This document shows positions 146-63,200 of a stretch of DNA of 64,000 nt, in pieces. Both the position numbers and the translations under genes were made by a program. Each line of letters begins with the position of its first letter. The stretch's first letter is position 1. Source of the DNA: Sipunculus nudus (taxonomy: Eukaryota > Annelida > Sipuncula > Golfingiida > Sipunculidae); contig CM049311.1 in the NCBI GenBank assembly GCA_026874595.1, positions 59,525,953-59,589,952 on the forward strand, written 5' to 3'. Below the pieces are notes generated by a model, which saw only the letters and a list, made by a program, of their open reading frames with translations, was not told the DNA's origin and ran no database searches.

Positions 146-3100
146 GACCCAAATGTGTACACAGGTGAATAAAAACGATCTGATTAATATTCATCGTCAG
201 CTGGCACTCGCTGTGAGTGCATTGCATTTCGCTGAACTTCCGGTGGAATACAGAGGAGGCTCCAACCCGGGTAAGTCAAATCAAACTCAATAGCCAAATA
301 CCATAAAAATGGTTAACAGATAGGCTTCGGGACGGACGTCATCAATAATAATTACGAATGCTTATGATGGCCACTCGGTTGAGCTAAGCATGCAGAATAC
401 GTGTGATTTTACAGAGTTTACCCTCCCCTTTTAATCTACAAATGCAAATATCAGGGTGTGACACCTCCTGTTGTCTTTAAATAGGCTTCTTCTTTAATAT
501 TATTAGTCAATATTTGTGTATATCGTTCTATGAATTTATTTGTACAACATTTTATTTATTTTATGTATACGGGTATTTTAGTTTCATTTTTTCCCCATAT
601 TTGTATTTAACTATGTACTCAACTGACAGCATCCTGACCAGGACCCTATAGAAAAAACAGCTCATGCTGAATAGGTTGTCCTGGTTTTATATGTATTAAA
701 TAAATAAATTAATAATAAATTCAAAGTATAACTTGTACAATTGACTCTTATTTTATATTTAGCTTTCACTCGGGCCACGGCGGACAGCTTTGGTATGCTG
801 GTCAGGTCACCTGCTTATCTTCACAGCATTGGCCTTCTTCCGACTGCAGAGACCGACCGAGGTAGGATACTTAAAGACCATACTTGACTATATTTACGAT
901 GATACCTTACTTATTCATCAGTGCCCCCTATATCTCCTGTCCAGCAGGTACCAAGGATGGTAAAAATGTAACGGGGTACATCAGTGATGCTTTTTTTTTT
1001 ACTGAAATTTGCAAGTTGGTCATCGCCATCCAGTCAAATCTCTTTATTAATAATCAACTCAGAGAAAGATGTGTTCATTTTATAATCCCTTCATATATCT
1101 TCATGACTTCATTAAGAGTTAATTGCAAGTACATATCGTAGGTTTAAACTACTTTGAACGACTATTTGAACCCAGCACCAAACTTTTTGTGTGAGGATAA
1201 TTATTAAGATTTTTTTAACGTGTGCACTCTATATATAGCGCTTATAATAAATCGGAATTTTACGGTAAATGAAAATTCAGTGCACTGCATTAATTTATTT
1301 TTAATTAATTTTACAAAGCCCCGAGTCAATGAATGTCGTGAGAAAAAAAAATGATTTTTTTTCATCTCTTACCAAATCAGTCCAGTAATACTAAGGATAA
1401 ATAACCGTTAAAGTAGAGAAAATGTTACCTTCATTTGACACTCCGTGATAATCGGGCCGTAACTGCTGCTGTTGAATAACAAAAGAATTAATAATTTTCT
1501 ATTTTTTTTTGGCTCAGGTGCTGATATTAACGAACTTTTCAAGTATGCCTTGGATCAAGTCGCGTTCGTTCCATTCGGCGTGTTAGTTGATGTCTGGCGT
1601 TGGGGGGTTTGGGGCGGGGAGACACCTAAGAATCAATATAACCGCAAGTGGTGGGAACTAAGGTATGTCATTCCAAACATTATCTTGTACATATTATTAT
1701 TATTATTATATTTAATCAGTAATTTCGCTCCGGAAGTTTATTTTCTGATTAAAAGATTATATAATATATACCCTAAATGATCAGATAAAACCAATGTGAA
1801 TATCATTAAAGCAGTATGAATATATAGTAGCAGCAGTATGGCGAAGCTCTCACTATATTGCTCGTATGATACATGCTGGAAATTGACTTGTGTATCCTTT
1901 AACTGGCCTGTATATGACGTGATATATTTCTTGATAGTAAAGCGAAACAAGAAATACATAACTATAATAATTCCATAAATCTTATCGTGTTATAATTTTA
2001 GACATGTTTACCCCCTTTTATCTACAGATGCAAATATCAAGGTGTGACACCTCCTGTCATGCGCACTGAGGCCGATTTTGATCCTGGCTCCAAATACCAC
2101 GTGCCTGCCAACGTCGATTACCTGGTGTAAGTAAAATAGCACAGTCCAAGAGTACCTTTTCCTTTTATATTTGTTTTGACTTACAAGAAGAATAGTTCCA
2201 AATTCTGTTGGTTTAAACCAGGAGAACAGTTCCGTAAATGAATGGTTTTAACATGTTGATAGTATGGTTTTAATTAACACGTCAGTGTACAACAACGTAT
2301 CTACAAACAACATACAAACATAATATCACAAGGAAAGATATTGTACAGCAATTCACGCAGCAAGGTAATACAACATAGATCTCACTGATCAGTATCAAGT
2401 GAATGAACTAAAATTAACAAGCAGATTCGTTGAATTAATGCCCCTGCTTTGGCCTCTTGTTGTCTTTCATGCTTGAAAAGCAACCAAAATTAAGACGTGG
2501 AGAAAAGGCACATGAAAACTTAAACAGATCTACTATGACATGTGAAGACATCTGCAGGCCGATAATAGTAAGGAAAGTTATCGAACGGAAACGATCCTGG
2601 CGGACGGACAAACAGACAGACAGAGGGACAGAGATACAAACCTAAACCAATGTCCCCCGTTCCGCGGAAGCGGGGGACAAAAAATTAATTCAAGCCTTCT
2701 TTTTTTTTGCTTTATGATTAAACATGTTTATATATGTAAGCATCCATTTTTTAGCTCAGCTGACTGAAAGTCATCTGAGCTATAGCGATCACTCTTTGTC
2801 CGTCGTCCGTCTGTCCGTCTGTCCGTCTGTCCGTCTGTCCGTCCGTTAACCAGGCACAAATCGTAACCGCTGGACCTAGAACCTTGTAACTTGGGATTCT
2901 GAGAGGTCCATAAAAAATCTCCTTGGAAACCAGAAATTAGGTCTCTGTTACCCATATCCTTCGAGCTATGTGGCCCCAAAGTACCCCCCAGAAAAGTCAA
3001 AAAATCCATACAAAAACTTCAATATCTCATTAACTACTTGACTGATGGTCATGATTTTTGGCATACATATTGATCATGAGATGTTACATCACTTCCTGCA

Positions 3101-6100
3101 GACTGGTGGCGCCACCTGTATTTTTCGATTTTTTACGAATTTTTTTCTCTATTTTTGAGACCTTTAAAAATGTGAACATCTGTTAACAAGGCACAAATCA
3201 TAAAGACTGGACTTAGAATCTTAATTCTTGACACACTGAGAGGTCCATGAAAAATCTCCTTGGAAACCAGAAATTAGGTCTCTGTTACCCATATCCTTTG
3301 AGCTATGGGGCCCCAAAGTACCCCCCAGAATAGTAAAAAATTTCATACAAAAACTTCAATATCTCAATAACTACATCACTGATGGTCTTCATTTTTGGCA
3401 TACATATTGATCATGAGATGTTCAATCAGTTCCTGCAGACTGGTGGCGCCACCTGTACTGTTTGATTTTTTACGATTTTTTCCTCTATTTTTGAGACCTT
3501 TGAGGATGCTGTCATCTGTTAGCGTGGCACAAATCGTAACGACTGAACCTAGAATCTTCATTTTCGACACACTGAGAGACCTATGAAAAGTCTCCATGGA
3601 AACCAGAAATTAGGTCTCTGTTACCCATATCCTTCGAGCTATGGGGCCCAAAATTACCCCCCAGAATAGTCAAAAATTTCATACAAAAACTTCAATATCT
3701 CATTAACTACATCACTGATGGTCATGATTTTCGACATACATATTGATGATGAGATGTTTCATCAGTTTGTGCAGACTGGTGGCGCCACCTGTATTTTTCA
3801 ATGTTCACGAATTGTTTTCTCCATTTTTGAGACCTTTAAGGATGAAGTTATCTGTCAACAGGCTACAAATCGTAACGACTGGACCTAGAATCTTCGTTCT
3901 TGACACACAGGGAGACCCATGATAAGTCTCCATGGAAACCTGAAATTTGGTCTCTGTTACCCATATCCTTTGAGCTATGGGGCCCCAAAGTACCCCCCAG
4001 AAAAGTCAAAAATTTCATACAAAAACTTCAATATCTCATTAACTACTTGACTGATGGTCATGATTTTTGACATACATATTGATCATGAGATGTTACATCA
4101 CTTCCTGCAGACTGGTGGCGCCACCTGTATTTTTCGATTTTTTACGAATTTTTTTCTCTATTTTTGAGACCTTTAAATATGTGAACATCTGTTAACAAGG
4201 CACAAATCATAAAGACTGGACTTAGAATCTTAATTCTTGACACACTGAGAGGTCCATGAAAAATCTCCTTGGAAACCAGAAATTAGGTCTCTGTTACCCA
4301 TATCCTTTGAGCTATGGGGCCCCAAAGTACCCCCCAGAATAGTAAAAAATTTCATACAAAAACTTCAATATCTCAATAACTACATCACTGATGGTCTTCA
4401 TTTTTGGCATACATATTGATCATGAGATGTTCGATCAGTTCCTGCAGACTGGTGGCGCCACCTGTACTGTTTGATTTTTTACGATTTTTTCCTCTATTTT
4501 TGAGACCTTTGAGGATGCTGTCATCTGTTAGCGTGGCACAAATTGTAACGACTGGACCTAGAATCTTCATTTTCGACACACTGAGAGACCTATGAAAAGT
4601 CTCCATGGAAACCAGAAATTAGGTCTCTGTTACCCATATCCTTCGAGCTATGGGGCCCAAAATTACCCCCCAGAATAGTCAAAAATTTCATACAAAAACT
4701 TCAATATCTCATTAACTACATCACTGATGGTCATGATTTTCGACATACATATTGATCATGAGATGTTTCATCAGTTTGTGCAGACTGGTGGCGCCACCTG
4801 TATTTTTCATTGTTCACGAACTGTTTTCTCCATTTTTGAGACCTTTAAGGATGTAGTTATCTGTCAACAGGGTACAAATCGTAACGACTGGACCTAGAAT
4901 CTTCGTTCTTGACACACAGGGAGACCCATGATAAGTCTCCATGGAAACCTGAAATTTGGTCTCTGTTACCCATATCCTTTGAGCTATGGCACTCCAAAAT
5001 ACAGCTCAGAATAATGGAAAATTTGATACAAATGCTAAAGTATCTGAACAACTAATGCAGAGATAACCATAATTGTTTGCATGGATATTGATCATGGAGT
5101 GTTTAATAAGTTTCTGCAGACTGGTGGCACCACCTGTATTTGTTCGGTTTTTTTTACGAAATTTTTCTGTATTTTTGAGACCTTTAAAGATATGAACATC
5201 TGTTAACAGGGCACAAATCATAAAAACTGGACCAAGAATCTTCATTCTTGACACACAGGGAGACCCATGAAAAGTCTCCATGGAAACTTGAAATTAGGTC
5301 TCTGTTACCCATATTCTTTAAGCTGTATGGGTCCAAAATACCCCCCCCCCCCAGAATAAAGGAAAATTTGATACAAAAACTGCAGTATTTCAATAACTAC
5401 AACACTGATGGTCATGATTTTTGGCATACATATTGATAATGAGCTGTTCCATCAGTTTCTGCAGACTGGGTGTGCCACCTCTATTTTTTTTCAAATTTTT
5501 ACAAATTTTTTTCTTTTTTTTGAGACCTTTAAAGATGTGGTTATCTGTCAACAGGGTACAAATCGCAACAACTGGACCTAGAATCTTCATTCTTGTCATG
5601 CAAGGAGGCCCATGAAAGGTGCCTGTGGAAACTTGAAATTAGGTCTCTGTTACCCATATCCTTCAAGCTATAGGACTCCGAAGTATCCCTCAGAATAATG
5701 GACAATTTGATACAAAAACTGAAGTATCTGAACAACTAATGCAGAGATCACCATGATTTTTTGCATGGATATTGACCATTAAGTGTTTTTATTAGTTTCT
5801 GCAGACTGATGGAGCCACCTGTATTTTTGTATCCGCCAAAACGAAGTTTTGCGGATACTATGTTTTTGACCGAGTTCCTCCGCCGCGGCGGCGTTCGTTT
5901 CCAGAGAGCTCCTCGGAGACTAATGGACCGATTTTTCCCAAACTTACACCTATTATCGGGTCACATGTGAACTGGTGCCTAACCAATTTGCATTGACCTC
6001 TGACCTTTCCTCTCTATCCAGTGTCCATTTGTGGGTCTGTTTCCACTCATAAACCCTCATATCTCGGGAACCGTTTGACCGATCAGGAAATAAAATTGAT

Positions 6101-8861
6101 ACAAATGTAGCCCTTGGATTGCTTTATAACATACACAAAAAATGGTGGCGCCACCTGTAACCATGTTTGCACAGTGTCCATCTGTTCATCTGCCTTTGGT
6201 TAAAATCACTCATATCTCTGCAGTGAATTGACTAATTCACCTGAAATTCGTCATGTGTATACATCCAGGATAGCTTTCTTGATTTTATGAAGGTGGCGCC
6301 ACCTACGTTCACTTTCACGCTGATGACATCCAAGCTTATATCTCGGGAACCGTTTGACCGATCAGGAAATAAAATTTATACAAATGTAGCCCTTTGATAG
6401 CTCTGTAACATACACAAAAAATGGTGGCGCCACCTGTAACAATGTTTGCACAGCGTCTGTCTGTTAGTCTGCCGTGGCCTAAAATTACTCATTTCTCTGT
6501 AGTGGTTCAACATAACTGCCTAAAATTTTGCAGGTTTATACATCGTGGACAGCTTTCTTGATTTATGACAGGTGGCGCCACCTACATTCAAGTTAACGCT
6601 GGACACATCCAAGCTCATATCTCAGGAACCATTTGACCGATTGGGCCAAAATTGTGCATGTGTTTAGATCTCACATAGGTCTTTATCATACACAAAACTG
6701 GAGGGGTTACCTGCAAAGATTTTTGCACAGTGTTTGTCTGCCATGGGCAAAAATCGCTCATATACATGTAGTGGTTTGACTTTTCTGCCTAAAATTTTGC
6801 ATGTGTATACAACTTGGACAGCTTTCTGGATTTGTGGTAGGTGGCACAACCTACATAAACATTTAGGCTGCAGACATCCATGCTAATATGCAACATACCT
6901 CACTCTATTTCCCCTTGCCACTCAATCCATGCCTCACTATCCAATTTTGGCAGATACATGTAGTCACTTGTCGGTTACCCGTATTCTAGTTTTAAAAGTT
7001 TACACATTTTTCTCTATTTTTGAGATATATAAATACAGACTAAATCTTGGCCTGTTGGTTAATCTGTTTGATGCTTCAGTTGAATGGGTATATACTACCA
7101 TTCTGATGATAAAATTTCCTTTTGCAAATCTCTTCCCAGTCAGCTGAGCGTCATGACCCATGGGTCACTTGTTGCACTATGTTACCCTATTTCTTTTCAT
7201 TTATCTGACTCTTTCCACTTTTCCAGGCTATCATTTCCTGTTTCTTCAATATACGTTATATTATACTTAAAACATATTTTATATTATAATATTTTTGGTT
7301 CCTGATGCTGGAACCTGAATACATATAAAGATGTCTTTAAACTGACAAAACTACCATGTTTACACTCTGTGATTCATACTGATTAAATACAATTTGTTTT
7401 AAATCCAATTCCTTCCCTTCATATACTTCTTTTTTCTCACACTCCATATAATTCGATCTCTTTGTAATTACAAGAACAAGTGACTAATTGTTTCAGGGTG
7501 TGTCCTACAATAGGTACATGGGCATCAGTTGTTTTTATTTTAACCAGTAGAGGGCTTAGAGTTAATTTTCTATGTAGAACTCTTTACTAAAAATATCTGT
7601 GCTTGCTATCAATCATAATAGTATATATTTTATTTTAAAAGACAGCATCTATCACATCTAGCACTGATTTAATCTTTATTACATATTTGCCCTTGTTAAG
7701 CACATATATCTTTCAGGATCTTTTTTTATAAAATTGCTTTTAAATATATTTTTATTTGATATGAAAAATGTAATTTAAATCTTTTGAATTTACTCTTTCT
7801 GGGCGAATGGTATTGAACTCAATAAACCATAATACTCTGAAGTGTTTGGGTTTTAATAATTTTTTTCGTAACATTAATTAAATGTGCAAAATCTAGTTTT
7901 ATACTCAGTCTAAATTAGAACATCTCTTATCAATTTTATAAAATTATTAGACGTCAAATAATGGTATAGGACCCTTTTAAATATTGTCTCTCTCATGCTA
8001 CAGTTTTAATTTTTTTCTTGCAGGTACTCAGTTGGTATGATACAGCAGCATCAGTTCTTTAAGGCCATGTGCGACAATGCTGGGCACACCGGTCCTCTGT
8101 ACAAGTGCAACTTCTACGGTTCGAAACAGGCTGGAGAAAAAATGGGGTAAGTTGATGACACTTTAATCCAACTATAGGCAGATTAAACTCAGATGGTTAG
8201 CTGCTATGAAGGAATGAGGTATTGGCCTAAGTTACTATAATTAAATTATAATCATATTTTGCAACAACAACAAAAATAAATAAAGTAATGCAACACCTCA
8301 GCTCCATTCATGAAGGTAAAGGTCACTGGTCACATGCTCAAAGAACTGCATTTAAAAGCTTCCGAATGGCAAAAACAAACATTCCTGGACCACTGAGATC
8401 TCTGACGAAGTGCAAGATATTTCCAAAATCCTGTGAGAAGATGGGAGGAATCCTTTCAGACACAAATTATCTATCACAGTATATAAAGGGGCCTTATCAC
8501 CTATCTGATCTTTATTAACTCAAGGTAATCCCTTGTAGCTTTTATTAAAAATAGGCCAGAAAACGTGGATATCACCGCACACAGGCTGCTTGTTGTGTGT
8601 ATATCCACTTGTTTATTAAATGTGGGGGCCCGCTAAAATAATCAAAACTAATTCAACAACGCCATCTGGCGGCAAGTCAGCTAAGCCAGAGCTTTGCAAA
8701 AGTGACCTTTCGTCCTCCGCATATATGCAACCTACCACCTTAGGTTACATCCCATTTGTCAACATTGCTGTGTTTACTAGCACGTTGTTTATAAACAAGT
8801 TCACACATCCTGAGCGGAGGCGTTATAAGAAACTTCCTAACCAGAATTACCCTTAGATCAT

Positions 8862-8920
<59 letters not shown>

Positions 8921-9331: not shown

Positions 9332-9643
9332 TTTTTTATCATTCCTTAAAGAGAATACTAGTGTATTTGTATAACAAATATGGGGAAGATGTTAAGGTGC
9401 CTTACACACTGATGTGGTCCAGGGCAAATAAGGACTCTGTGTTAATCTCTCAGGGAACTTGCCATATTTTCAGATATGATCGAGGTTTTATTATCTCATT
9501 ATTCTTGGTATTAATGCGAAATGTTACGTTATCCAGGGGTCTAATATCAAGTTTAAGGTAGAACAGGGTTTTCCCCATCTCTTTCTTCTGCAAGCTGTTA
9601 AATTATTTTGTTCTGCTTAATATGGAACATTGCATGAAATAAA
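9332..9643 (+). promoter_or_regulatory. 3' UTR and poly(A) signal of the ACE-like gene
   Basis: Non-coding tail after the stop codon with AATAAA at 9638-9643, about 300 bases downstream. A second AATAAA near 10015 could be an alternative. Transcript ends are inferred. Confidence 0.5.
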
Positions 9644-9649
9644 GATATG

Positions 9650-10100
9650 GTTACGCGCTTTCCAAGACCTCGGCTGCTTATCATAGGTTTTGCGTATTTA
9701 GCGTATTTTTATTATTTCTTATTAATATGATTATGTATTATAACCAATATCGCCATGAAGGTATACAATACTATCTACACACACTTGTTTCACATTAAGA
9801 ACAAAATCTAGGTTTATATGGCTAGGTTTATAGCTCTGGGTAGGAGCTAGTTGACGACTAAAGAGTAAGCTTTACGATTCAGGTTAAGGCTCCGGTTAAA
9901 TGCTTTGGCTAAATATTTGTGTTACTTCTGGGGTTAAGGTTTTAGTTAACTTGTGTGTTCATTGTAGTAAATTTTAACACATAGTTTTTAATTTATATGT
10001 TTTAGATATGACTCAATAAACTGCTTAAATTTAATTTGAATCATTTATGTTTTGGTTTGTTTATTCATTTTAAGTGAAGTATATATAGCTTCCCTGTGTA
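9650..10100. other. Intergenic, no feature recognised
   Basis: AT-rich sequence after the ACE-like poly(A) signal. No conserved frame or repeat terminus seen. Confidence 0.6.
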
Positions 10101-10102
10101 CA

Positions 10103-12025
10103 CGAGGTGTGTCTGAAAAGTAACGGGACTGGTGTCACAGTAAATTTATTTCAATGCCAAATTACTTCATGGCTTCCCCTTAAAAGCACTCTCCATTGAG
10201 TCTGACGTTCTTTCCGTCATTCTATGCCACACTTCTGTGCACTGCTGGAAAGATTCTTCTGGACGCCAGTCCGCTCCGCGTTTCGGATTCTTAATGGCTT
10301 GACGCCTTCAAAACAGGACCCCTTAATAACCCCCCTTGAGCTTGGAAAAAAGAAAATACTCACACAGAGCAAGATCAGGTGAATAGAGGGTTTGTTCTAG
10401 TATGGTGATTTTTTATGCCCCCGCCACAAAGTGGCCGGGGCATATAGTTTTACCCATGTCCGTCATTCTGTCATTCCGTCATTCCGTCATTCCGTCATTC
10501 CGAAATCAAACAGTTGTACGGACTTTTTTTCGCAATGCTTGCAGATATTGGCCTAATTTTTGGTGTGTGGGCAGATATAGACCAGTTACAGATCGAGTTC
10601 ACGTTTCGTCCCGGTTGACCTACTTTTGACCGTTTTACGGCTCCTAAACTTAGAAAATTTCATGAAAAATAGAAATATTCATGACAGATACACATGTACG
10701 GACTTTTTTTCGCAATGCCTGCAGATATTGGCCTGATTTTGGTGTGTGGGCAAATATAGACCAGTTACAGATCAAGTTCGCGTTTCGTCCCGGTTGACCT
10801 ACTTTTGACTGTTATACAAACATAGAAAATTTCATGAAAAATAGAAATATTCATGAAAGATACACATGTACAGACTTTTTTTTCGCAATGCCTGCAGATA
10901 TTGGCCTGATTTTTGGTGTGTGGGCAGATATAGACCTGTTACAGATCGAGTTCGCGTTTCGTCCTGGTTGACCTCTTTTTGACCGTTTTACGGCTCCTGA
11001 ACATAGAAAATTTCATGGAAAATATGAAATATCATGACAAATACACATGTACGGACTTTTTTTTGCAATGCCTGCAGATATTGGCCTGATTTTTGGTGTG
11101 TGGCCAGATATTGACCAGTTACAGATAGAGTTCGCATTTCGTCCTGGTTGACCTACTTTTGACTGTTTTACGGCTCCTGAACATAGAAAATTTCATGTAA
11201 AACATAAATTTTCATGACAAATACACTTGTACAGACTTTTCTTCACAATACCTGCAGATATTGGCCTGATTTTTGGTGTGTGGGCAGATAATGACCAGTT
11301 ACAGATCAAGTTCACGTTTTGTCCCAGTTGACCTATTTTTGACCGTTTGACGGTGCTCTAACAAAGAAAATTTCATAAAAAGGTGCATATGTATGGACTT
11401 TTTTTCGCAGTGCCTGCAGATACGGGCCTGATTTTTGGTGTGTAGGCAGATAATGACCAGTTACAGATCGAGTTCTTGTTTTCTCTCAGTTGACCTACTT
11501 TTGACCATTTGACTGCTTCTGAACATAGAAAGTTTCATGAAAATTATAAATTTTCATAACAAATGCATATGTACTTACTTTTTTTCCTCAATGCCTGCAG
11601 ATACCACCCTGATTATTATGTGTGGGCAGATAATGACAGTTACAGATCGAGTTCGCGTTTCATCCCGGTTGACCTACTTTTGATTGTTTTACGGCTCCTA
11701 AACATAGAAAATTTCATGAAAGACAGAAATTTTTATGGAAAATGCACATGTATGGACTTTTTTTCACAATGCCTGCATATACTGGCATGATTTTTGGTGT
11801 GTTGCTTGATAATGACCCGTTACAGATCGAATTTGCATTTTGCCCTTGTTGACCTACTTTTGACCATACGACACCTCCTGAACTTAAAAAAATTTTCAAA
11901 ATTTTACAAATGTTTCTAATTTGCCCAAGGCGGGGGCATTCGTGTCGTTCCGACACATCTAGTTTTCTCGGATGTTCAGGGCGTTGTGAGCAGGTGCACT
12001 GTCGTCAAAATCAAACGTCAAAGTA
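10103..12025 (-). mobile_element. Mariner-type transposase remnant, split by repeat element H-C1
   Basis: Minus strand: 12025-11963 encodes FDDSAPAHNALNIRE, the segment holding the second catalytic Asp region of mariner transposases. 10414-10103 continues with KITILEQTLYSPDLALCEYF, LFSKLKG and further residues (ESFQQCTEVWHRMTERT) to a terminal sequence ACTTTTCAGACACACCTC, a mariner-style inverted end. The intervening 10415-11962 is an inserted repeat. The 5' half of the transposase gene is missing and there are internal stops, so it is dead. Confidence 0.85.
10415..11962 (+). mobile_element. H-C1: hairpin-ended element inside the mariner remnant
   Basis: The 5' hairpin is ATGCCCCCGCCAC, AAA, GTGGCCGGGGCAT (10415-10443, one mismatch), then a GTCATTCC microsatellite and about eight monomers of roughly 180 bases beginning near GTACGGACTTTTTTTCG (10514, 10694, 10868, 11050, 11230, 11390, 11570, 11750). 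The 3' side has GGCGGGGGCAT (11929-11939), the exact inverse of the outer hairpin arm, then GTGTCG-TTC-CGACAC and CTAG (11959-11962), followed by TTTT. Confidence 0.88.
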
Positions 12026-12029
12026 AACG

Positions 12030-15451: not shown

Positions 15452-15571
15452 TAAGAATCTATATATTAATAGCGTAAGGCGATTTTTGTAATTTTCCGTA
15501 TCTCCTCTGATACTACCGTACGGTTTGCCATGATTTCTGACATACATATGCTCAGGGTTTATCCGAAGAGA
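15452..15571 (+). repeat. Dispersed repeat R2, copy 1
   Basis: Shares ATCTATATATTAATAGCGTA and GACATACATATGCTC with 17128-17239, same orientation, 1.67 kb away. Confidence 0.7.
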
Positions 15572-17127
15572 TTCCACCCACTTTTATTTGCAATATTTGC
15601 GTATTACGTGCATAATTAATAATTTTAATATTTGCTCCCCCGCGGGCGCCTCTTTTCTTTGTGTCTTCGGGCCTGATAACACAATGGCCACAGAGTGTTT
15701 GATGGCGTGACAGAGTTTTTCTCCGGGGTCCCCATCTGGGCTTTTCTTAAATTTGCGGTGACCGGCCCGAAATAATCCCCATTGGTGATCCCTTCTCAAA
15801 AGGCAACCTCCGCGCAGCGAAAAGGTCTATTGTGCACAAGGAGATCTCGCGTGAGGAAAATGCTCAAAAGGGGGATCTTTCAAGGAATGAAAATTTTCCG
15901 AGCGGTAGTGAATGCAGGGTAGTGTGTAAAACCCGAACCCCACGGTCCCCGGACCCCATAAACCTATTTCTCATTTTCCATTATTTATACCGATAAAAAC
16001 ACCACTATTGTTGATGTAAGGACAGAGCAAAGTCCCTAAATGTTGCACATTTGTAAATGACCGATTCACTGAAAGATTTATAATTACAAAAATATTTCGA
16101 TGAAGACGGACCTCATTTACTTGAATTTGCCGACTGTTCAATTTTGACGGACCCCAGTAACCACCGCTCATATTTTTATTTATGACTAAAAGAGGACAAA
16201 AATAGCACTCATGTCGCACACTAAAAAGCAAATATAATATTTGTTATTTTAAATGAAAATATAATAGTGCGGACACAGTGGGGGAGATTTAATTTGAAGT
16301 GCACTAACAGTTGAACGGACCTGAGACTGATATATCAGAGCACTTCCACATAACAACAGGTTTCGTGCTCCGTTCATAACAACCATGCAATTTTAAAGTT
16401 GGCAATAACATAAATACCGAAAGGAATTGTTGATTACTTGCATTTCAAGCAACTACAGGTTCCAAAATAATGATTTTGTAAATGTTTTAAATTATAATAC
16501 TTTTTAAAACGCTACACAAATGAAATAAATAACAAATATAAAATTATGAATACAAACTGAGACAGAAATGTAAAAATACAGATACTAACACAATGATAAA
16601 TCACAAATGTGTCATGGCTAAACGTGATGTCAAATACATGTATGTACTAAAGAAATGGTAAAACAACGAGAAAACGGGGTCCGTGTAATCCGTGAGGTCC
16701 GTGCCCCAGGGTCCGTAAGTGTTTTTTTTTTATCAAATTTTGTTGCAAAACAGACTATTTTTTATGTTTTAACCAAACATAATATAAAAAAAATATGTCT
16801 TTAGATACGATTATGCTAAAATATCTGGACAAATTACCATGAGAGTTTAAGAATTACAAATTTTTCTTGGGTTCCGGGATCCGGAGTGGGATCCGGGTTT
16901 AACACACTGACTGAACGCAGTGACTGTTTCACTGGAAAACATTATAACAGGTTCCTTTACTGGCGGATTCACGGGCGCGGAGGGCAACTTTAAATGGCGA
17001 TGTTCAGCATAATATATATTTTCATATAAAAATGATTTTATTAACATATCAAATTCTTCGAAAATTCTCCGGCCAACCTCTCGGCTTCAATTAGTATTTT
17101 TTTTTTCCATAACACTATGCATTTAAT
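15572..17127. other. Intergenic between the two R2 repeats
   Basis: Includes GGTCCGTG-type repeats (16679-16722) and GTCCCCGGACCCC (15944). No gene recognised. Confidence 0.5.
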
Positions 17128-17239
17128 GGATCTATATATTAATAGCGTAACGCGATTTGTGTGAATTTACATGTCTCCTCTGACACTACGGTTTGCCGTG
17201 ATTTTTGACATACATATGCTCCGGGTTTGTCCGAAGACA
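17128..17239 (+). repeat. Dispersed repeat R2, copy 2
   Basis: Direct copy of 15452-15571, about 80 percent identical over 110 bases, starting ATCTATATATTAATAGCGTA. Confidence 0.7.
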
Positions 17240-17929
17240 AGAACGTATTCGTCCAGGTCATTCAGACTCCGACACAAGAATAACTCAGAGACAGAACACT
17301 TATAACAAATATCGGATTCAAAGAGACAGTAACATTGTACACCCAAGACATGAAACTATGACAGACTATTTGACATCAGAACTAAATGCTCGCTCAAAAC
17401 CGTGCGTAGCACGGGTAATTGCTAGTATACATGATTATTGGGACGCGTTCTCATTAGTGGTCCAGATAACCAACGATGTTTGCCAATTAATAACAGCCAA
17501 GAAACGGTTTCACAGATTTTTTAAACATACCATGAAAGTGTAATCAAGCGGTGTAGACGGATTTAACCGGACTCAATATTAACAGGTCCTGTCATATATT
17601 GAGTCTGACAGCGATACAGTGAGTATCTACAATATAAGCTATGGTATAATCAGTATAATACATTAAGGTTCAATACATCACAGTGAAAGTGTTCTACCGT
17701 ACGAGGATAATTAATAATATTATACTATGTGTATAGTTAGCTTGATTTCATAATGTACTACAGTACTATTTCGTGAGTTCACCTTGCAAGCCGGCCCACT
17801 CCTCGGGTACAAACTGAAATGATCATGTGTGAATTTAGTCCGTTTCAATTAGCTGGATTAAGCTTGGCTTTCTGGGTTAGATGAGGTTTTCGTGGTCCAG
17901 AATCAAACGGATGAATCGCTCACCGATCC

Positions 17930-38992: not shown

Positions 38993-39917
38993 ATTTCATA
39001 TATATAAGCAAATAATTACAGTCACCGAAATTCTTATTCTTCATGTCGCCGCGGCTATATATACTATCGGTGTCAAGGCTCTAGGTCACACTCCTGAACA
39101 AATCTGTGTTAAAGACGCTGATTGAGCTATTGTTCTCTTCATATTCTAATAACAAAGAGAAATATAGACAACTCAAGTTTCGACATGTAACTGTACCACA
39201 ACAGTATAGCATGTCGTAAAATATACACACGGATAGTTTTCATGACATTTACATCCCGTATTTAGCCTGTTTTCACTATTAAATTGTCTGGTTGTTCGAA
39301 TTGATAAAGTTTTAATATTTTGTATTAAATACCAACACATAACAAACAGAATAAATGATTCGTGTAACCAGAGACTCTTACCTATCAGAGCGCCCGACCG
39401 TGCCGGATGGTTAGCCTGCAGGGAGTAACTGACTGAAGCATCCAGAATGTCGGGAAGTCATTAGTAACATTAGTAATATACGATCTCAGTTCAGTTGTCA
39501 GCGAATGAATAATGCTGGAGGTTTGCTGGTGAGCAAAGAATTAATATCCGTTCGCCCCCTTGCTCTGATCACATCCTTTTGCCCAGCCTCAAGGATTACC
39601 CACAAGTTCTTCACTAGACAGTACAGGCTTCAGCAAGAAGATATATCCAACTTATCACTCGACTTATCTGGTCTTTATAAAAAGTCATTGCGAGTACATG
39701 TATCTGCTGTTCATTATGTACAGTAGTGATTAGACCCAACATAATCATGATGGTGTCATCCCTGTTGGACGGGTCTCAGATAGGCGTCTCGTATCGTCTG
39801 TTCTGTTCGGGTCCAATGAGGCAGTATTGCAGTTTTGTTAAATGAAATAACTACAAACCTTGGAGTCCTACATTCCCCTCTCTTTTGAAAAGAATGGGGT
39901 AGAATTTTTATAATTTT
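38993..39917. other. Intergenic, no gene recognised
   Basis: AT-rich, with a 73-codon frame at 39505-39726 of no recognisable family. Confidence 0.5.
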
Positions 39918-40190
39918 ATGCCCCCGTCACAAAGTGGCCGGGGCATATATAGTTTTACCCATGTCCTTCATTCTGTCATTCCGAAATCCAATAGTTGTAC
40001 TTAAGTTCTCCACAATGCTTGCAGAAATTGGCCTGATTTTTTGGTGTGTTGGTGCATAATAACTACTTACAGATCGAGTTCATGTTTCTTCGTGGTTGAC
40101 ATACTTTTGACTGTATGACGGCTCCTGAGCATAGAAAATTTCATGAAAAAAATAGAAATTTTCGTAATAAAAGCATATGTCCCTATATAT
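39918..40190 (+). mobile_element. H-C2: truncated copy of H-C
   Basis: The same 5' hairpin (ATGCCCCCGTCAC, AAA, GTGGCCGGGGCAT), a short CATTCTGTCATTCC stretch and a single monomer with GCCTGATTTTTTGGTGTG and TTTCATGAAAA. The satellite array and 3' end are missing; a dispersed repeat begins at about 40200. Confidence 0.8.
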
Positions 40191-40854: not shown

Positions 40855-41050
40855 AGGGCCCAGCTTTAAAAAAAGCGGTGCCCTATTGTGCTCACCGTGT
40901 CCGTCCGTCCTTCCGTCAGTTAAGCTTTCTTTCGATATTACAAAGACAATTCGGTAGATCATTCTAAGATCCACGGGGATGTTTGGTGCCTAGGAGGGCT
41001 CCGTCACTATCGAGTTTTATACCATCCAAAGATTCAATATGGCTGCCAGA
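40855..41050 (+). mobile_element. H-F: 5' end of another hairpin-ended repeat
   Basis: AGGGCCCAGCTTT (40855-40867), loop AAAA, AAAGCGGTGCCCT (40872-40884): a 13-bp stem with two mismatches in the middle. It is followed by ATTGTGCTCACCGTGTCCGT and CCGTCCTTCCGTC. The element's 3' limit is not evident; the end given is approximate. Confidence 0.55.
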
Positions 41051-48200: not shown

Positions 48201-51200
48201 AACTAAACATATAATTCTGTATCAATGATGTTAGTGCACTTTTATCTAAATTTCAGTTATTGCTGTGTTGACAGGATTTTTTCTTTGATTTTTCAGAAAC
48301 CAAATACAACTGTCAGGTTCTTTGATAGAGGGGTAAGCATGTTTACAATATTTTTCTGCTTTACATAGTTTACTTTGTTCTCATTACACCTAAACAAAAT
48401 ATTATAAAATTATTATTTTTTTTTTATTTGCATTTCATTTTTTTTTTCAGTTTTCATAAAATGAGGGACAAGAAGGCTATCTTTTATTTTACAGAATTTT
48501 CCAAATATATTAATTATAAAGGACACCACTATACTTAAAACACTAGTAAGTGTGGAAAAATTAGATTTAGTTACCAATATCTCTTATGTATTAAAATAGC
48601 ATAATTTATGAAAAGCAAATTCTCAAATAACTCCATCTTTCTTTGATTGAAAAAAGTGAAGGAATCTCATGGGTTTTATGTGAAAGTAGTATAAATAAAT
48701 ATTAGCTGAAAAGGATTTGACTGGGATTGTCTTTTTCAGTTAGTTAAAAGTGTTTCAAGGAAGCACTTGCATTCAGTTAACCAGAAAATTTATATACTGA
48801 AAAACTGTCTGTAAAGAGCTTGTAAAGGAATCACAGTCCCTCTTTTCTCAACAAATGTATAATATTGGTAGCACCAGTGTCTTAAGTGTTTGCTCTCAGA
48901 TTGCTTGTGGACCAAAATGTTCATTAATATGAGATCTGTACAATCAGTACAGTCAGACCTCAGAATTATGACCGATGCTGGGACCTCGGTAAAGTGGTCA
49001 CATTTGCCAGGTGGATGTCTAAGCGAGGTTTATATAAGAGTGAAAATAATCAGGACCCATAAAAAGTGTCTTGTGGTGAGGACCAAACTGAGGTAGTCTT
49101 TAGGTGAGTTTTAACTGTAATATGTGATTGCTGATTAACTTCAGGATTTGGTAGTTTTCATTATCAGGTCCTCGTGATTGTAGGAGTACTACACAGTCCA
49201 TGGACCTGATGCTGTGTATGCAGCAAAAGAGGTGTTCAAGACCATGGGGGTCATCAAGTACTTTGGATCAGGTAGGACCAAGTTCATATAAAACATCTGT
49301 AACAGTCCACAAATAACTTATTCAGACAAATTAAAATCCACTTTGTTAGACCAAAAAAATAAAAGAGTATGGTTCTCAGGCACTTTTTTAGCTCAGCTGA
49401 CTATAAGTCATCTGAGCTATAGTCGTGGTCCTTTGTCCGTCATCCGTCCCGCCGTCCGTCCGTTAACAGGGCACGTTTTAAAACCGTTGGACCTACAAAT
49501 CCAAAATTCTGCATACCATTAGATGTCCCTAAAATCTCCTACCAAACAAAAAATTGGGTCATTTAAACTTCGTTCCTTCGAGATATTAAGGAAAAACCTC
49601 CGTTTTCCATAAAAAAGCAATTGTTACACTTCAAGTCTGCCTAATATTAAAACCACTGATCTGTTTTTGATCATATTTAGTATTCATATTCTTCCATACA
49701 TTTTCTGTGCACATACCAAAAATTAAGTCAGTATTGGGTATTATTTTGAAGTTATCAGCCCAAATATAATGCAATTTTTTAAAAATCAGGAAATATATTT
49801 GCTCACTTAACATGAGAATTGCTGAAGCTGAAGACTTTTTTTTCAGGAATATAACTTTATTTAATCAAGATTCAATTGTTTGCCCAAAATTAGATCTGAA
49901 TTTTGCAAATTTTTCAAGTTATTAGCATAAATAAAAAATTAATACCTTAAATTTTGTCCAACTTTGGCAGTGGCACGTTTTTTCCCTGTAAGCACTGTTG
50001 ATTTAATTTTCACAGCATATATACATACGGATTTAATCTTTTAAAATCTGAAATTTCAAAGAAATTGTTTGAAAAGAGTAGCTTTTGTTCAAGTTTTCAT
50101 ACACCATGTCAAGTGTTGTTTATATCTAGCCCACCTAGTAGTACAGCCTTCACTTGCATTATGTAACCCACCCCAGGCAGCTTGCCTTGACCCAGCTTGG
50201 CCACTACTAGCAGGCTTCTCCTCTGCCCTGCACTCACCCCCCCCCCCCCCCCCCCGCTGGTGCATAAACTAGATGAATGTTATAATTTTCTGTATTTTAT
50301 TTTATTCTTGGACATGCTACATTTTAGATTTTGTATTGTACCACCAGGGTTACAATGATTAAAGTGCACATTTAATTGTGTCCACAAAGTGAAGTAATAC
50401 TTTACTTCAGAAGAGTAAAACTTCACCAGGTGTGAAATTGACTATTAATTCCAGTTATTAATTATAGCTGAGATTGTAATTAGCATAATGATATTGTTTG
50501 TCCCTCATTCAACCAACAGTGTGTATACTTTATTTGAAAAGATGTTTTTATTTTATCAAATTTACTGAATCTTTTATTTTATTTCGGTGAATAAAATTAA
50601 GCTTGTCCTGAAAAACTCCAATGTGCAAAACTTTTTAATAGGAATTCAATTAATAATTTTGTAGATGCCATGTTGTGGCATTATTTTCTTTTACATTCAG
50701 TTTAAACATTTGATTTAAAAATAATAAAATATATGTGTATGCATAATATGACCCAATGTGAGCTACAATCTGGATATATAATGATTGCAACTTAGAATTC
50801 TAATATTTTAACTTATATTTTCACTTTTATATTACAAATTTATAACACTTGTAAATAAAAAAATGAATCAGATAAAAACTATTAATGAAAAAAGTGGATA
50901 TGCTAAAAGAATAGGCTTATATATAAACTTAAATGCATTATTCCTTTAAAAGTGAAATGAAGGTATTAGTCCATTCTGTCCACTTGCCTGTCCATCTGTA
51001 AATTTTTCATATGCATCACAGTATCTCAAAACTTTTACTGTTTTTCTTCATGACAGTCTTGTCAGAGTATTAGTTTGCAATCATATATTGAGAACTTTAC
51101 TATAACCAAGTAGGAGGGCCCTTTCCTCTTAGCTTCTCATATGCTTATATAAATATAAAACATTACAATAGAATATTTTTCATATTTTGCATTTGCAAAA

Positions 51201-57200: not shown

Positions 57201-60200
57201 CTTAAAAGTAAGGTAATAGACTGGCATCTTTGAAATTTTGTTCATCGAAGAAAAGGGACATAGGCTATTTGAAATTAAGTTATGAACTTGTATTTCCCAT
57301 TTGAATAAGATTTCTACAAAACATCAGATATTTCAGAACTGGTTAAATGGATTGCTTCAAATTTAGGTTTGCTCGTGTACTATAACATTATTCATTGCAC
57401 TAGACTTGTGATGCCAGCTAATTCCAAGCAATTTCAGTAATATTTCTTTAATTGATTAATCCAAGCAGTCTTTATAAGTGCAGGGATTAAGCATTTTGAA
57501 GTGATTACCATGATAGAAAATTGGCAGATATTCTTATGCCCAGCAGTGGCTTCATTGCCTAGCACTCAGGAGACCTTTACATCAGACATAAGCACATTAT
57601 ATAGTAAATAAAGTTTTAACATTTATGCTTCAACATTTTTTTTTTCAAATTTTGATTCAGTACCACATTTAACCATTATTTACTGGAGGTCATGTATGTA
57701 ATGCAGTTTTTCATAATTATTGGTTTATTCACTTCCAGGAGACTTTTCCACCAAGGACAATGTACAAGATTTGAACCGGCTACTGAAGTTTAAGAAAGGG
57801 GAGCAGGCAAACAGTGCTGCCCTGCGTGAGTGGTTACTGTCTTCACAGAGATACAGTGCTGAGTGGTTTGAGAGCACATACCTCCATCAAGGCTGAACAG
57901 CAATGTTTACTAATAGAGCTTGCTTTCAGGAGAAGAATGTATATCGGTCATTAGCTCAGGTTAAGTGACTGATTATAGATAGTTGTATCGCCAGACAAAG
58001 TCTGGAGATACTATGGTTTAGGCACGGTTGCGCCGCCGCCGCCGCCGCCGCAGAGATTTCTTTTGGACACAATAACTCAAAAAATATTTCAAGGATCTTT
58101 TTCAAACTTGACACATTTATAGATATAGGTGAGAGGACGAAGCCTATTTAAAATGGGGTCATGACCTCAACTAGGAGAGTGACCTTGACCTTGAATAGAT
58201 CCATTTTTGGGGAAAATCACACAAATTCTTAAATATCTCAAGAAATCTTTCATGGATTTATCCAAAAATCAAGTTGGACAAAGATCTTGGATAGTGATGT
58301 CATGTACCGGAAACTGGTGGTGCCACCTAGTATCCTTTTCTTGTTTTTGTGCCGTTTAATACCCCTATCATTGCCACTTGACAGTACTTTTAGCATCACA
58401 AGTCAAAAACTAATTGACAGATTTCTTTAATATTATGCATGTACATAGGTATGAGTTATGGGATGATGTATATTAAAATTGGGGTCATGACCTTTCCTTT
58501 GAGAGTGGCTTTGACCTTGAATATTACCATATATGGTGAAAATCACATAAAATCATGAATATCTTAAAAGGGAGCATGGATTGGTCCAAAAATCAAGTTG
58601 ACGGAAGATCTTGGATAGTTTTGTCTTTTGCAGAAGATAGGTGACGCCACCTGTTGTCCTTTTCTTTGTTTTTTGCGCCTTTGAATACCCCATCATTGCC
58701 ACTTGACAGTATATACTGTGAGCATTATAAGTCAAACAGTAATGGACAGATTTCTTTCATGTTATGCAATTTTTTTTTTTTCAAATGTTGGATATTTTGG
58801 AATGCAGTTTATTGATTTTGGGTCATGACCGTGACTATGAGAGTGACCTTGACCTTGAATATTCCCATATTTGGTGAAAAACATAAAATCATGAATATCT
58901 TAAAAAGGGCCACTTGACAGCACTGTGAGCATTATAAGTCAAAAACTAATGGACAGATTTCTTTTATATTATGCATATACATAGATTTGGATTATGGGAT
59001 GAGATATATTTAAATTTGGGTCCTGACCTTGCATATGAGAGTGGACTTGACTTTAAATATTGCCATATATGGTAAAAATCACCAACAATCATGAAAATCT
59101 CCAGTGAACCTGGGGGATTGCTTCAGCTAGTGGTCTGCAAATGGTGTTGCATCATGTTTTGCCCAAACATCAGCAGTTCTGGGCCATGGTCAGATTCTAT
59201 AAATAGATATGATGGTCAGTGATAAATGAATTAGTGCACTGGGTGTACCACAGAGTCACAACTGGATCATTTTCCTTTGAGAGTGGTCTTGACCTTTGGA
59301 CGAAGACTATTTAAAATGGCTCATGAATGTTGCCTATATGGGACTTGACAGTATTGTCAGCATTATAAAATAAAAATTAAAAAGTTGTTGGATAGTGTTG
59401 TCATGTGCTGGAAACTAATTGGCAGATATCTTTCATATTATGCATATAGATAGATATGGGTAATGTGATGAGTCATTTGCTGGGAACTGCATGGTGGCAC
59501 CCCCTACTCTATTTTCTTGTTTTTCCACAATTTATGCTATTGATAAGGAACAAATGACAATTTTTATGACAATATAACAATTTATTACAAAGAACAAAAT
59601 ATGATGTGAAACAAAATATAACAGATATTATTATTTCATTCTCATTATCATATCTCTCCATCTCTCTGAAATCTTGTCTATCCATCTCTTTCTCTTTCTT
59701 TCTGCTTTACTCTTTATTATTCTCAAACAAGTTACTCCAAACATACATATACAACTCAATACATCATTAAATATATACTTCTATTTATACATAACCTTTT
59801 ACATAACAATTGCCTTTACTTTAAATATTCCTATATTTTGTACAAATGTTTCTCACATTCATTGCTAAAATACAAATACATCACATTATATCAACAAAAT
59901 ACCACAAAACCTTATTTGTCTGGCGATACTATTGCACCAGCAGTGCCAAGAAATGTCTAGTTCATCACTGATTTTCAGGAGAAGTTGATAATGATTATCA
60001 TCTAGAGACTATCAGTGAAATATTAATATGTTCAATTAAAAAAGAGGATTTAAGATTTATTTATATATCACTGGTGCCTGGACCTGCCCACGGCGGAGCA
60101 ACAACACTGCAATGTATGTGTAAAGCTGACAAAAATTAGATACATATATCAGCTTCACTTAATTTGCTTTTTAATGTTGGGACATACTCTAACACTGTTA

Positions 60201-63200
60201 TCTCAAAGTTTCCTGTGTATGACAAATATATAAAACTATAAATGATGTAAAATATAATCAGTTTGCTGAATAAATCAATTTATCACTTGATCATATCAGT
60301 TCTCTTCAGAGCCATTATTAATCACATTGATTTTAAATGTAAGAGGCATAGTTTATATATTAATGTTGTTAATATTCTTGTATCCATTGTTATGTTGGTG
60401 TATTGTATGCACCTATGCTATTAACCTGCACCTATGCTATTAACCAAATCAAGCAATATCTGAGGGAAAAATATACTAAACAAAAAAAGAATGGTACAGA
60501 TTCTATCAGCTTCCAAGGTCATGGGACAGATTGTGTCTCAAAGCTGGGTGATCACGAATTTGAATATCAGCCAAGGTAGTGAAAGTTAGCTCAGCTGACT
60601 GTTAGTCATCTGAGCTACAGCAATCACCCTTTGTCTAGCATCCGTCAGGCTGTCCAGCTGTCTGTCCATTTACAGGGCACAAATGGTAACCATTAGACCT
60701 AGAAACTTTTAACTGTACAACCAGGAGGTCTTGGGCAAATCTCCTTGGAAACCTGAAATTAAGTCATGGTGACCTATATTTTGTGACCTATGGGCCAAAA
60801 ACATGATTTCGGGCACCCAGACAGACAGGGCACAAATTGTATCCATTAGGCCTAGAAACCTCTAACCTTGGAAACCTGAAACTAGGTTACTGACAGCTAT
60901 ATTCTGCGACCTATTGGAAAAGATGTCATATGAGCACCCTGAATGTAAGATGGGGACAAATCGTATCTGTGAGGCCCAGAATCTTCTAACAGAATATCCT
61001 GGGATTTTCCGGGGCAAATCTCTTTGGAAACCTAATATTAGGTCATGGTGACCCATATTTTATGACCTTTGGGCCGAAAACAAGGTTTTTTAGCATCGGA
61101 CTGTCAGACGGGGCACAAATTGATTCAATAAGGCCTAGAATACTCAACCTTGACATTTAGGGAGGTCAAAGCCATATTTGAAAACCTGAAATTAGGTCAT
61201 TTTGACCTATATTTTGAGACCTACAGGCCGAAAACATGATTTTGAGCACCCTGAATGTTAGATGGGGACACATCATATATGTGAGGCCTAGAATCTTTTA
61301 ACTTAATATCTTGGGTGTTTCTAGGCAAATCTCCTTGGAAACCTTAAATTAGGTCATTGCAACCTTCTTTTAATGACCTTCAGGCCAAAAACAAGGTTTT
61401 TTATAATCAGACAGTCAGATGTGGCACATATTGAATCGATAAGTCCTAGAATCCTCCAATGTGACATTAAGGGAGGTCCTTGGCAAATCTCCTAGATGTT
61501 TACCTTTATGTTGTGACCTACAGCCGAAAACATGATTTCAAGCACCCTGAATGTTAGATGGGGACAAATTGTATATGTGAGGCCTAGAATCTTCAAACTC
61601 AGTATCCTAGGAGTTTCTAGGTAAATCTCCCTGGAAACCTGAAATAAGGTCATGGTGACCTATATTTTGCGACCTATGGGCTGAAAACATGATTCTGAGC
61701 CTTCTGAATGTCAGATGGGCACAAATCATATTTGTTAGGCCTAGAATCTTCTAATGCAACATCCTTGGAGGTCCTAGGCAAATCTTCTTGGAAACTTGAA
61801 ATTAGGTCATGGTGACCTACATTTTGTGACCTACAGGTCAAAAACAGAATTTTGAGCACCCAGAAAGTCAGGCAGGGCACCCTTTGTATTTGTTTAGCTT
61901 AGAATCTTCTAATATGATATTCTGAGACATCCTTGGCAAATGTCTGTGGAAAACTGAAAATAGGTCACCATGACCTATATTTTGCTACCTTTAGAAAATA
62001 AGTCGTATTAGCACCCAGACAGTCAGTCAGGGCACACATTGTATCTGTTAAGCCTAGAATCTTCTAATGTAACATTCTGAGACATCCTTGGCCAGTGTCC
62101 TTGGAAAACTAACATTAGGTCACCATGAAAAGATGTCATATAAGCACCCAGACAGTCAGACAGGGCACAAATTGTATCCATTAGGCCTAGAATCTTTAAA
62201 CATAAAATTCAGGAAGGTCCTAGTCAAGTGTCCTTTGGACATCTCCATGACATCCCAAAAAATGTCAGGTTAGAGGTTTCTTGGCCTAATGGATACAATT
62301 TGTGCCCCATCTGACTGTCTGGGTGCCCGAAATCATGTTTTTGGCCCATAGGTCACAAAATATAGGTCACCATGACCTAATTTCAGGTTTCAAAGGGGAT
62401 TTGCCCAGGACCCCTTGGATGTACAGTTAGAAGTTTATAGATCATATGGTTACGATTTGTGCCCTGTTAACGGAAGGACGGCTGGAAGCTGGACAGACGC
62501 CGGATAAAGGGTGATTGCTACAGCTCAGATGACTTACAGTTAGCTGAGCTAAAAACATGAGCACCCAGCCAAAATTAGCTGAGCATCATGGCTCATGGGC
62601 CACTTGTTGTGGTCAGCACCAACCCAAGGTGGGAATTCTGCAGGCTTAATGGGGAGACTGTTCCAACAGTCATATTTCACTCATAAAGTAATTCACCTTT
62701 CAGGGTTTCTTCTGTGACACACACTCGGTACCCACCCAGGTTGACATCAGGATAATTGTGTGCAAGCCCCTGTCATGTAGTCTGAAACTGTAGATATACA
62801 TAGTTTTTAGTTAAGCAAGCCTTACAAAAATGGAGGCAGTTACCTCCACCAAAACATTTAAAAAAAATGCTTATTATGTTGTCATGCAATTAGTCCTGCC
62901 TAAATGATCAAAAGTTTCAATAAATTCATAAATAATTTTAAAAATCTCTAAGTACAAAAAATAAATGTATCTTGATATTTTTGTTTCAGCTGAATCAGAT
63001 TTGCTACATGCAATGGCTTGTATCTCAGCCCTGATCAAATACTTGGAGGTAAGTAGTTCCTGTAATTGCAGGCTGTCAGGGAGAAGATGAATAAATGCTA
63101 TGTTATTTTATAATAAAAATAAAATGAAATACTTTATTAAAACTGCACTAGCATTTCTCTTTACACCCACAACCTCTTAAGAACAGCATAACTTTTCAAC

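Follow-up and report, generated by a model that had tools for sequence, protein, structure and literature searches.

Rolling-circle transposon families with flawed 5' hairpins in the Sipunculus nudus genome, and a likely autonomous Helentron partner for one of them

A 64,000-nucleotide stretch of the genome of Sipunculus nudus (assembly GCA_026874595.1, contig CM049311.1, positions 59,525,953 to 59,589,952; hereafter the window) contains the ends of six families of repeats, which we call H-A, H-B, H-C, H-D, H-F, and H-G. All six open with a 5' hairpin of 12–14 bp with a central defect, and the remaining layout of the 5' end is common to them as well: usually a T-rich flank in front, a short loop, and usually a microsatellite behind. 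The letters were assigned by window position and may differ from those of a preliminary description of the same DNA, made from the sequence alone. The hairpins were verified in the raw sequence and by a bulge-tolerant hairpin scan, which returned 9 hairpins in the window and 3, 0, 2, and 2 in four shuffles. Six of the 9 are transposon ends and three are not; the scan missed H-D, which was found separately, and H-F, which was read by eye and then searched by pattern. The ends and associated repeats are listed below, where subTIR denotes the subterminal inverted repeat at the 3' end.

2752..2782, forward strand: H-A 5' hairpin, outer arm TAGCTCAGCTGACT, loop GAA, inner arm AGTCATCTGAGCTA, C.T mismatch at stem position 9
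2797..2846, forward strand: GTCC/TGTC microsatellite after the H-A 5' hairpin
2845..5828, forward strand: central satellite array of H-A, unit 336 bp, 8.8 copies
5829..5858, forward strand: H-B 5' hairpin nested in the H-A array, outer arm GTATCCGCCAAAAC, inner arm GTTTTGCGGATAC, bulged C in the outer arm
6945..6989, forward strand: H-B 3' end, subTIR TTTTGGCAGATAC (outer-arm type), small hairpin, CTAG before TTTT
7139..7171, forward strand: H-A 3' end, subTIR GTCAGCTGAGC (outer-arm type), hairpin TGACCCATGGGTCA, CTTG before TT
2651..2679, reverse strand: H-G 5' hairpin, outer arm TGTCCCCCGCTTCC, inner arm GGAACGGGGGACA, bulged C in the outer arm
10414..10444, forward strand: H-D 5' hairpin, arms TATGCCCCCGCCAC and GTGGCCGGGGCATA, C.C mismatch
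10459-10502: TCCGTCAT microsatellite after the H-D 5' hairpin
11929..11962, forward strand: H-D 3' end, subTIR GGCGGGGGCAT (outer-arm type), hairpin GTGTCGTTCCGACAC, CTAG before TTTT
39917..39947, forward strand: second H-D 5' hairpin, one outer-arm base changed (CCCCCGTC)
40855..40884, forward strand: H-F 5' hairpin, C.T at position 6, second mismatch inconstant
49389..49419, forward strand: H-A 5' hairpin, second copy
57985..58011, forward strand: H-C 5' hairpin, arms GTATCGCCAGAC and GTCTGGAGATAC, G.A mismatch, GCC microsatellite after it
59918..59960, forward strand: H-C 3' end, subTIR GTCTGGCGATAC (outer-arm type), hairpin, CTAG before TT
60587..60617, forward strand: H-A 5' hairpin, third copy, with a different central repeat (about 157 bp)
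62521..62551, reverse strand: inverted H-A 5' end within the third H-A copy
62575..62606, forward strand: H-A 3' end of the third copy, TTAGCTGAGC, hairpin, CTTG before TT

A possible decayed 3' copy of H-G near position 2440 was seen by eye only and was not counted.

The genome (1.43 Gb in 153 contigs) was searched by pattern with the odd stem positions left free. The resulting repeat counts are lower bounds, and the matches listed for H-A, H-B, H-C, and H-D are the first places, on contig C1. The H-A hairpin occurs in at least 23,415 places; among the matches listed, 97 of 100 have C.T at the odd position, 3 are mismatched otherwise, and no stem is perfect. For H-B there are at least 5,556 places (among the matches listed, bulged C in 49 of 50, C.T in one, none perfect), for H-C at least 881 (G.A in 45 of the 50 listed, other mismatches in 3, perfect in 2), and for H-D at least 3,303 (C.C in 42 of the 50 listed, other mismatches in 8, none perfect). 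H-G was found in 18 places, 16 with the bulged C, 2 with a bulged T, and none perfect. All 6 places of H-F have the C.T at position 6, while the second mismatch, which had led to the family being presented as a two-mismatch stem, is paired in 2 of the 6 and is probably decay. Reversed patterns, used as a genome-wide control, gave 0 places for every family. A central defect is the usual state of all six window families.

A perfect version of the H-C stem exists in 31 places, with the loop AAA in 30 of them. Among 14 such places that were fetched (fetched stretches carry L numbers), 13 are genuine, separate 5' ends with a common element sequence, different flanks, and TT in front; the fourteenth, L047, was without H-C element sequence and was dropped from the count. 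Eleven of the 13 form one cluster of about 82–97% pairwise identity over the first 310 bases, and the other two, L041 and L048, are about 71–82% identical to the other perfect-stem copies and 78% to each other. Six copies were obtained as 2.4-kb stretches. Three contain a 3' end with the copy GTCTGGGGATAC and CTAG, and in these full copies the 3' copy equals the outer arm; L038, L040, and L042 had no 3' copy within the 2.4 kb (best distance 3). L041 carries a matching 3' copy of its own; of L048 only the 5' end is known. Judged by these alignments, the perfect stem lives on in two or three diverged lineages. H-C has G in the outer arm and C in the 3' copy, where the perfect-stem relatives have C and G; this difference is matched between the two sites, and the inner arm differs too. 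With 13 separate insertions on record, the stem defect is not essential for transposition.

These copies bear directly on an idea put forward in the preliminary description, namely that the mismatch is kept because it makes the 5' arm pair better with the 3' end than with the neighbouring inner arm; in the form weighed here, the defect is also selected and needed for efficient transposition. The prevalence of the defect in all six families agrees with it, as does the rarity of perfect C:G stems in H-A, which were counted directly at 110 of 23,415 (the A:T version falls outside this count); the 50 such places among the matches listed have many different loops, as scattered decay would give. However, most changes in dead copies are neutral, so this scarcity is weak evidence, and the 13 mobile perfect-stem H-C insertions, mostly one cluster plus L041 and L048, speak against the idea. 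Consensus hairpins with perfect stems, named beforehand as an observation that would count against it, are found in the mobile H-C branch, though not in the six families themselves, and a mismatch that is kept because it is needed does not fit a branch that has moved without one. Nor is the odd position more conserved than its stem neighbours, the check that the preliminary description had proposed, in H-D, the only family in which this was measured: 9 changes were found per 100 base positions at the odd bases, compared to 3 per 200 at the two neighbouring pairs. Counted by copy, among the 50 matches listed, 8 have a change in the odd pair and 3 have one in the two neighbouring pairs. The odd bases of H-D lie in a CpG context, so their faster change does not show relaxed selection, and because most substitutions in inserted copies are neutral decay, we set per-copy conservation aside as the main test of selection. 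Overall, we regard a defect that is needed for this preference as improbable.

The number of independent cases is also smaller than six. The families had been introduced as unrelated ones sharing a single hairpin design; the hairpins are real and the defect is usual genome-wide, but H-B and H-C are related. H-B and a perfect-stem H-C copy have 14–16 bases in common after the stem, which none of 300 shuffles reached, and GTATC opens both the H-B and the H-C stem. H-C and H-G have one 9-base word in common (0 of 300 shuffles), and the remaining pairs only the microsatellite unit or words of 4–8 bases. The relationship of H-B and H-C makes a selected preference slightly less likely, and a defect without any function slightly more likely. 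A relaxed scan for further families in all stretches examined gave no convincing new family, and in 16 stretches of 8 kb (128 kb) the hairpins with element-like surroundings were mainly further H-A copies. As these wider scans added no family, the six-of-six figure for the defect rests on the selection made by the earlier reader.

The central repeats of H-A, H-B, and H-C also contain a palindrome, GGTGGCGCCACC (window positions 3105-5123, 6144-6571, 25671, 26007, 58316, and 58640). It has 15 window matches at no more than 1 mismatch and 0 in each of 20 block shuffles, and it was also seen in 8 of 16 other stretches examined. Apart from it, the central repeats of the three families have only short common stretches, of up to 36 bases.

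At the other end of the elements, H-A 3' ends were found in at least 3,965 places with a pattern that left the odd base free. Among the matches listed, 100 of 100 have the outer-arm base and none the inner-arm base, so that inner-type 3' copies, the other finding named beforehand as contrary to a mismatch kept by need, did not appear among them. The same is true of the window copies of H-B, H-C, and H-D and of an H-D copy in L057. The 3' copy in L055 is of the outer type too, but L055 is the same composite as the window H-B; in an H-B copy in L031 the odd base is ambiguous. In total, 3' ends were present in 2 of 9 fetched H-B and H-D stretches, and none lay in range in the other 7. The observation that the 3' copy follows the outer arm even at the odd base is thus borne out, and so is that of a small hairpin followed by CTAG or CTTG before T, which was present in the 3' ends read of H-A, H-B, H-C, and H-D. 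The match to the outer arm is expected for this class of elements, as it is what subTIR means in the literature.

That class is the HINE/Helentron group, whose members are described as having 12–15 bp subTIRs, a short 3' palindrome, microsatellite or tandem repeats, and insertion between Ts (Thomas, Vadnagara and Pritham 2014, PMC4067079). HINEs are non-autonomous and have their ends in common with an element encoding Rep, helicase, and endonuclease (PMC4067079). Inverted repeats of 11–15 bp, near the 5' end and subterminal at the 3' end, are present here: 11 bp are fixed in the H-A 3' pattern, and outer arm and 3' copy are identical over 12 bp in H-C and 11 bp in H-D. A short palindrome between 3' subTIR and terminus is formed by TGACCCATGGGTCA in H-A and GTGTCGTTCCGACAC in H-D. 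Insertion in T-rich sites with T on both sides is also seen. All 13 perfect-stem H-C insertions (without L047) have TT ahead of the 5' end, T comes after CTAG in 3 of 3 full perfect-stem H-C copies, and TT after CTTG in 4 of 4 flanks of a composite discussed below; for 3 of these flanks, TT was part of the search pattern. No T run precedes the third H-A copy, at 60587. Canonical Helitrons (Helitron1: 5' TC, 3' CTRR, A/T insertion, no 5' hairpin) do not match these elements, which have a 5' hairpin, T flanks, and, in H-A, the terminus CTTG, although the CTAG of H-B, H-C, and H-D would fit CTRR. The ends do follow the Helitron2 layout of Bao and Jurka, with an asymmetric terminal inverted repeat (ATIR) forming a 5' hairpin and a 3' ATIR upstream of the 3' hairpin.

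An autonomous Rep/helicase element with matching ends, for which the preliminary description had advised a search, was likely found for H-A. The Helitron Rep domain (PF14214) has 143 matches in the genome, in open frames of up to 2,426 aa, several of them above 2,200 codons. One frame, in L029, runs for 2,342 codons without stops and contains a PF14214 match; L027 is its paralogue, 93% identical over 5,979 bp. The proteins of L027 and L025 combine Rep, PIF1 helicase, and an endonuclease domain (Exo_endo_phos in L027), which is the Helentron architecture, while the third protein examined, from L030, gave no endonuclease domain match. An H-A 3' end sits downstream of the L029 frame. With the frame end and tail as query, five more copies were found at 98% and one at 90%, and the matches stop at query positions 1321–1328, where CTTG ends at 1322. 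Similarity of the tails thus ends within a few bases of the junction of CTTG and TT, which puts the 3' terminus of the element at the H-A 3' end. Several of the tail-matched places also align upstream at 95–97% for kilobases, with 97% for a copy on C1. This C1 element starts at an H-A 5' hairpin, mismatch included (L035:2359). The copy in L036 matches the long element up to query position 416; its similarity to L035 begins 4 bases before that hairpin, and the flanks differ. By placement, the C1 element extends from about 71,789,258 to 71,805,195, some 15.9 kb. Other short matches to the first few hundred bases of the long element are 96–98% identical, and such 5'-only matches look like deletion derivatives.

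We hold the families to be very probably HINEs, and the Helentron-type element, which agrees with H-A at both ends, to be very probably the autonomous partner of H-A; such a partner is new here. Several points weigh against this assignment. The partner was pieced together by placement from separate stretches, and the 5' end of the L029 copy lies outside its stretch. Helicase and endonuclease domains were called on L027 and L025, not on L029; L027 is without the H-A tail, its similarity to L029 breaking off shortly past the frame. In the C1 copy, Rep is matched only in part (58–177 of 191). A second H-A 5' hairpin stands 1 kb inside (L035:3421), leaving the start of transposition ambiguous, and four Helentron-type or Rep-bearing stretches (L025, L026, L028, and L030) show no known end in the sequence examined. 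A partner with the same ends was found for H-A only: the ends of H-B, H-C, H-D, and H-G were sought in the fetched stretches, the sole DNA searched, without finding one, and those of H-F were not looked for. L025, L026, L028, and L030 were rejected as partners, having Rep frames and no known family end in the DNA read; weak arm-like matches in them, with two differences, came with no hairpin or 3' structure, and a look for the termini of these four elements did not find them. The presence of the flawed hairpin in the likely autonomous element does favor the proposal of a selected defect.

Some further features of these elements were observed. Two tandem H-A 5' hairpins about 1 kb apart, as if one start had overtaken another, lie at L035:2359-3451 and at L036:889-1933; both the likely autonomous element and a copy lacking the downstream part of it have this pair. 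The Helitron-like frames of L025-L030 contain, early in the frame, a tandem repeat of 63 or 69 bp in about 4–14 units, the number of which varies from copy to copy, and the Helentron frame at L025:1100-7849 has an OTU-like cysteine protease domain ahead of the Rep domain. In the window, pieces of 15455-17426 are 78–87% related to DNA downstream of the L027 Helentron frame and possibly belong to another repeat family.

The first H-A element of the window (2752-7171) contains one whole H-B element, and this arrangement offers a view of how an endpoint is chosen. The stretch from the H-B 5' end to the H-A 3' end exists at four sites at the least, that of the window and L055 plus L060, L061, and L062; the three extra sites were picked for a spacing of about 1.3 kb between a listed H-B start and a listed H-A end. 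The four composites are 97.5–98.6% identical inside and 32–46% after the junction of CTTG and TT. Since identity drops at that junction, each insertion ended at the H-A 3' end, past the H-B hairpin and CTAG. We lean, if only slightly, towards an endpoint set by the matched arm, not by just any 3' hairpin, and the composite as a natural experiment on endpoint choice is new here. Arguing the other way, the H-A 5' end was read in the window composite only, the other three being known from the H-B start onward, and the H-B 3' arm differs from its outer arm at two bases, so that read-through could reflect a damaged end. In addition, the composites were chosen for having both ends and number four, and no search was made for chimeras of an H-A 5' end and an H-B 3' end.

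What the defect could contribute to such a choice was estimated from pairing energies, computed with DNA parameters. The local hairpins have -10.2 (H-A), -10.0 (H-B), -8.2 (H-C), and -12.7 kcal/mol (H-D), hypothetical perfect stems -15.1, -14.7, -12.5, and -18.1 kcal/mol, and duplexes of the outer arm with the 3' copy -16.6, -17.1, -14.9, and -18.3 kcal/mol, in the same order; the duplex values leave out the cost of closing a kilobase loop, which counts against a pairing of the ends. The defect thus weakens the local hairpin by 4.3–5.4 kcal/mol in the model, in favor of a selected preference. At the same time, the modelled end duplex is at least as stable as a perfect hairpin in all four families, so that no mismatch would be needed for the preference, and in the perfect-stem relative of H-C the hairpin has -11.7 and the end duplex -14.1 kcal/mol. 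A switch between local hairpin and end-to-end pairing, as suggested in the preliminary description, was put forward for Helitron2 as early as 2013. The part that is new is a possible bias of the defect on the step from hairpin to end pairing, with which the modelled 4–5 kcal/mol agree.

The defect could instead act as a landmark, with the unpaired base marking the correct strand for Rep and distinguishing the outer arm from the inner one, by analogy with REP and IS608 hairpins. Bacterial HUH transposases read stem irregularities, and TnpA-REP of E. coli needs the bulge of the REP stem and contacts the bulged C (PMC8266576). One REP group, group 3, generally consists of perfect palindromes, a parallel to the perfect H-C stems beside flawed ones (PMC8266576). 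Five of 6 families have C as the odd outer base, and H-C has G. On the other hand, the base opposite is T, C, A, or absent depending on the family, the sample of six partly related families is small, the arms are C-rich, and perfect-stem H-C elements have moved. We consider a landmark unlikely, though somewhat less so than a required mismatch.

A simpler account gives the defect no function. The outer arm and the 3' copy would be a conserved binding site, the inner arm, needed for no more than the formation of a hairpin, would drift, and each family would inherit the defect of its founder; the central position would follow from hairpin detection, as defects at the end merely shorten the stem. 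The mobility of perfect stems agrees with this, as does the difference in kind and position of the defect between families. In oyster HINEs, the inverted repeats are given as 7–12 bp and the subTIRs as normally 11–12 bp, with one-mismatch subTIRs predominating in most elements (PMC7492417). One usual defect in 6 of 6 families, with zero only in the H-C branch, is tighter than free drift suggests; that tally is in turn weakened, as the families were picked by the reader for likeness and two of them are related. Judging from these comparisons, we give the absence of function nearly even chances.

The opposite extreme would be a selected, recurrent feature: source elements would keep one unpaired outer base, usually C, that biases the 5' arm to its own 3' copy, the endpoint would lie only at a matched 3' end, foreign ends such as that of the nested H-B would be read through, and the perfect-stem H-C elements would be less successful side branches. 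This, too, seems to us improbable. Any role at all for the stem defect is on the doubtful side.

Taken as a whole, the following explanation appears to us the likely one on the sequence evidence. The families are very probably HINEs, non-autonomous rolling-circle transposons mobilised by Helentron (Helitron2-type) elements with Rep, helicase, and endonuclease. Their outer 5' arm and 3' subterminal copy are one family-specific sequence, and the inner arm is a near-complement that forms the local hairpin. Rep would identify the 5' end by its hairpin, formed in single-stranded DNA, and replication would end at the place where the 3' copy of the family pairs, or is bound jointly, with the outer arm and so drives out the inner one. 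This exchange might be made cheaper by the defect, or the defect might serve Rep as a landmark, and it would be helpful or tolerated, not required. In our view, the working pair is formed by the outer arm and its matching 3' copy, and the defect is either helpful or neutral.

Where a rolling-circle transposon stops is an unsettled question, and this genome is a natural test set for it, with copies in the tens of thousands, a likely autonomous partner, hairpin lineages both flawed and perfect, and a composite that bypasses the internal 3' end of another family. The idea that the two ends interact has a precedent in Helitron2, for which pairing of the 5' and 3' ATIRs was suggested to destroy the 5' hairpin and set the replication endpoint (Bao and Jurka 2013, PMC3627910). 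The text examined on Helitron2 describes the same 5' ATIR hairpin with neighbouring bases, the 3' ATIR before the 3' hairpin, and the same notion of a switch, but makes no claim of a conserved stem mismatch (PMC3627910). Fungal relatives are described with hairpins at one or both ends (PMC5148889). In the published text that we examined on these elements, figures and supplements aside, we found no statement of a conserved central mismatch in the stem. Bacterial REP/TnpA-REP and IS608 are alike in that HUH enzymes read single-stranded hairpins, some needing an irregular stem and others perfect palindromes (PMC8266576); they are bacterial and use another protein family, so that the likeness is one of working principle only.

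The closest known systems are the HINEs and Helentrons themselves. The elements of PMC4067079 have the same subTIRs, 3' palindrome, repeats, T insertion, and ends common to an autonomous element; a stem defect is not discussed in the text examined, and the words mismatch and imperfect are absent from the main text. Unlike them, the likely partner described here has a long 5' region that contains satellite-like sequence as well as a nested HINE. The Cg_HINE families of the Pacific oyster share the anatomy and, as here, occur as several families in one genome, with a 5' subTIR, a complementary inverted repeat, a GTCC-type microsatellite, satellite-like repeats, and a 3' subTIR plus palindrome (PMC7492417). 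Two later satellite papers have, in the text available to us, nothing on autonomous partners (PMC12628747, PMC11136912). The oyster HINEs were reported without a relatable autonomous element, leaving the partner of satellite-carrying HINEs unresolved there (PMC7492417), whereas in S. nudus H-A supplies a likely one, which shares both of its ends.

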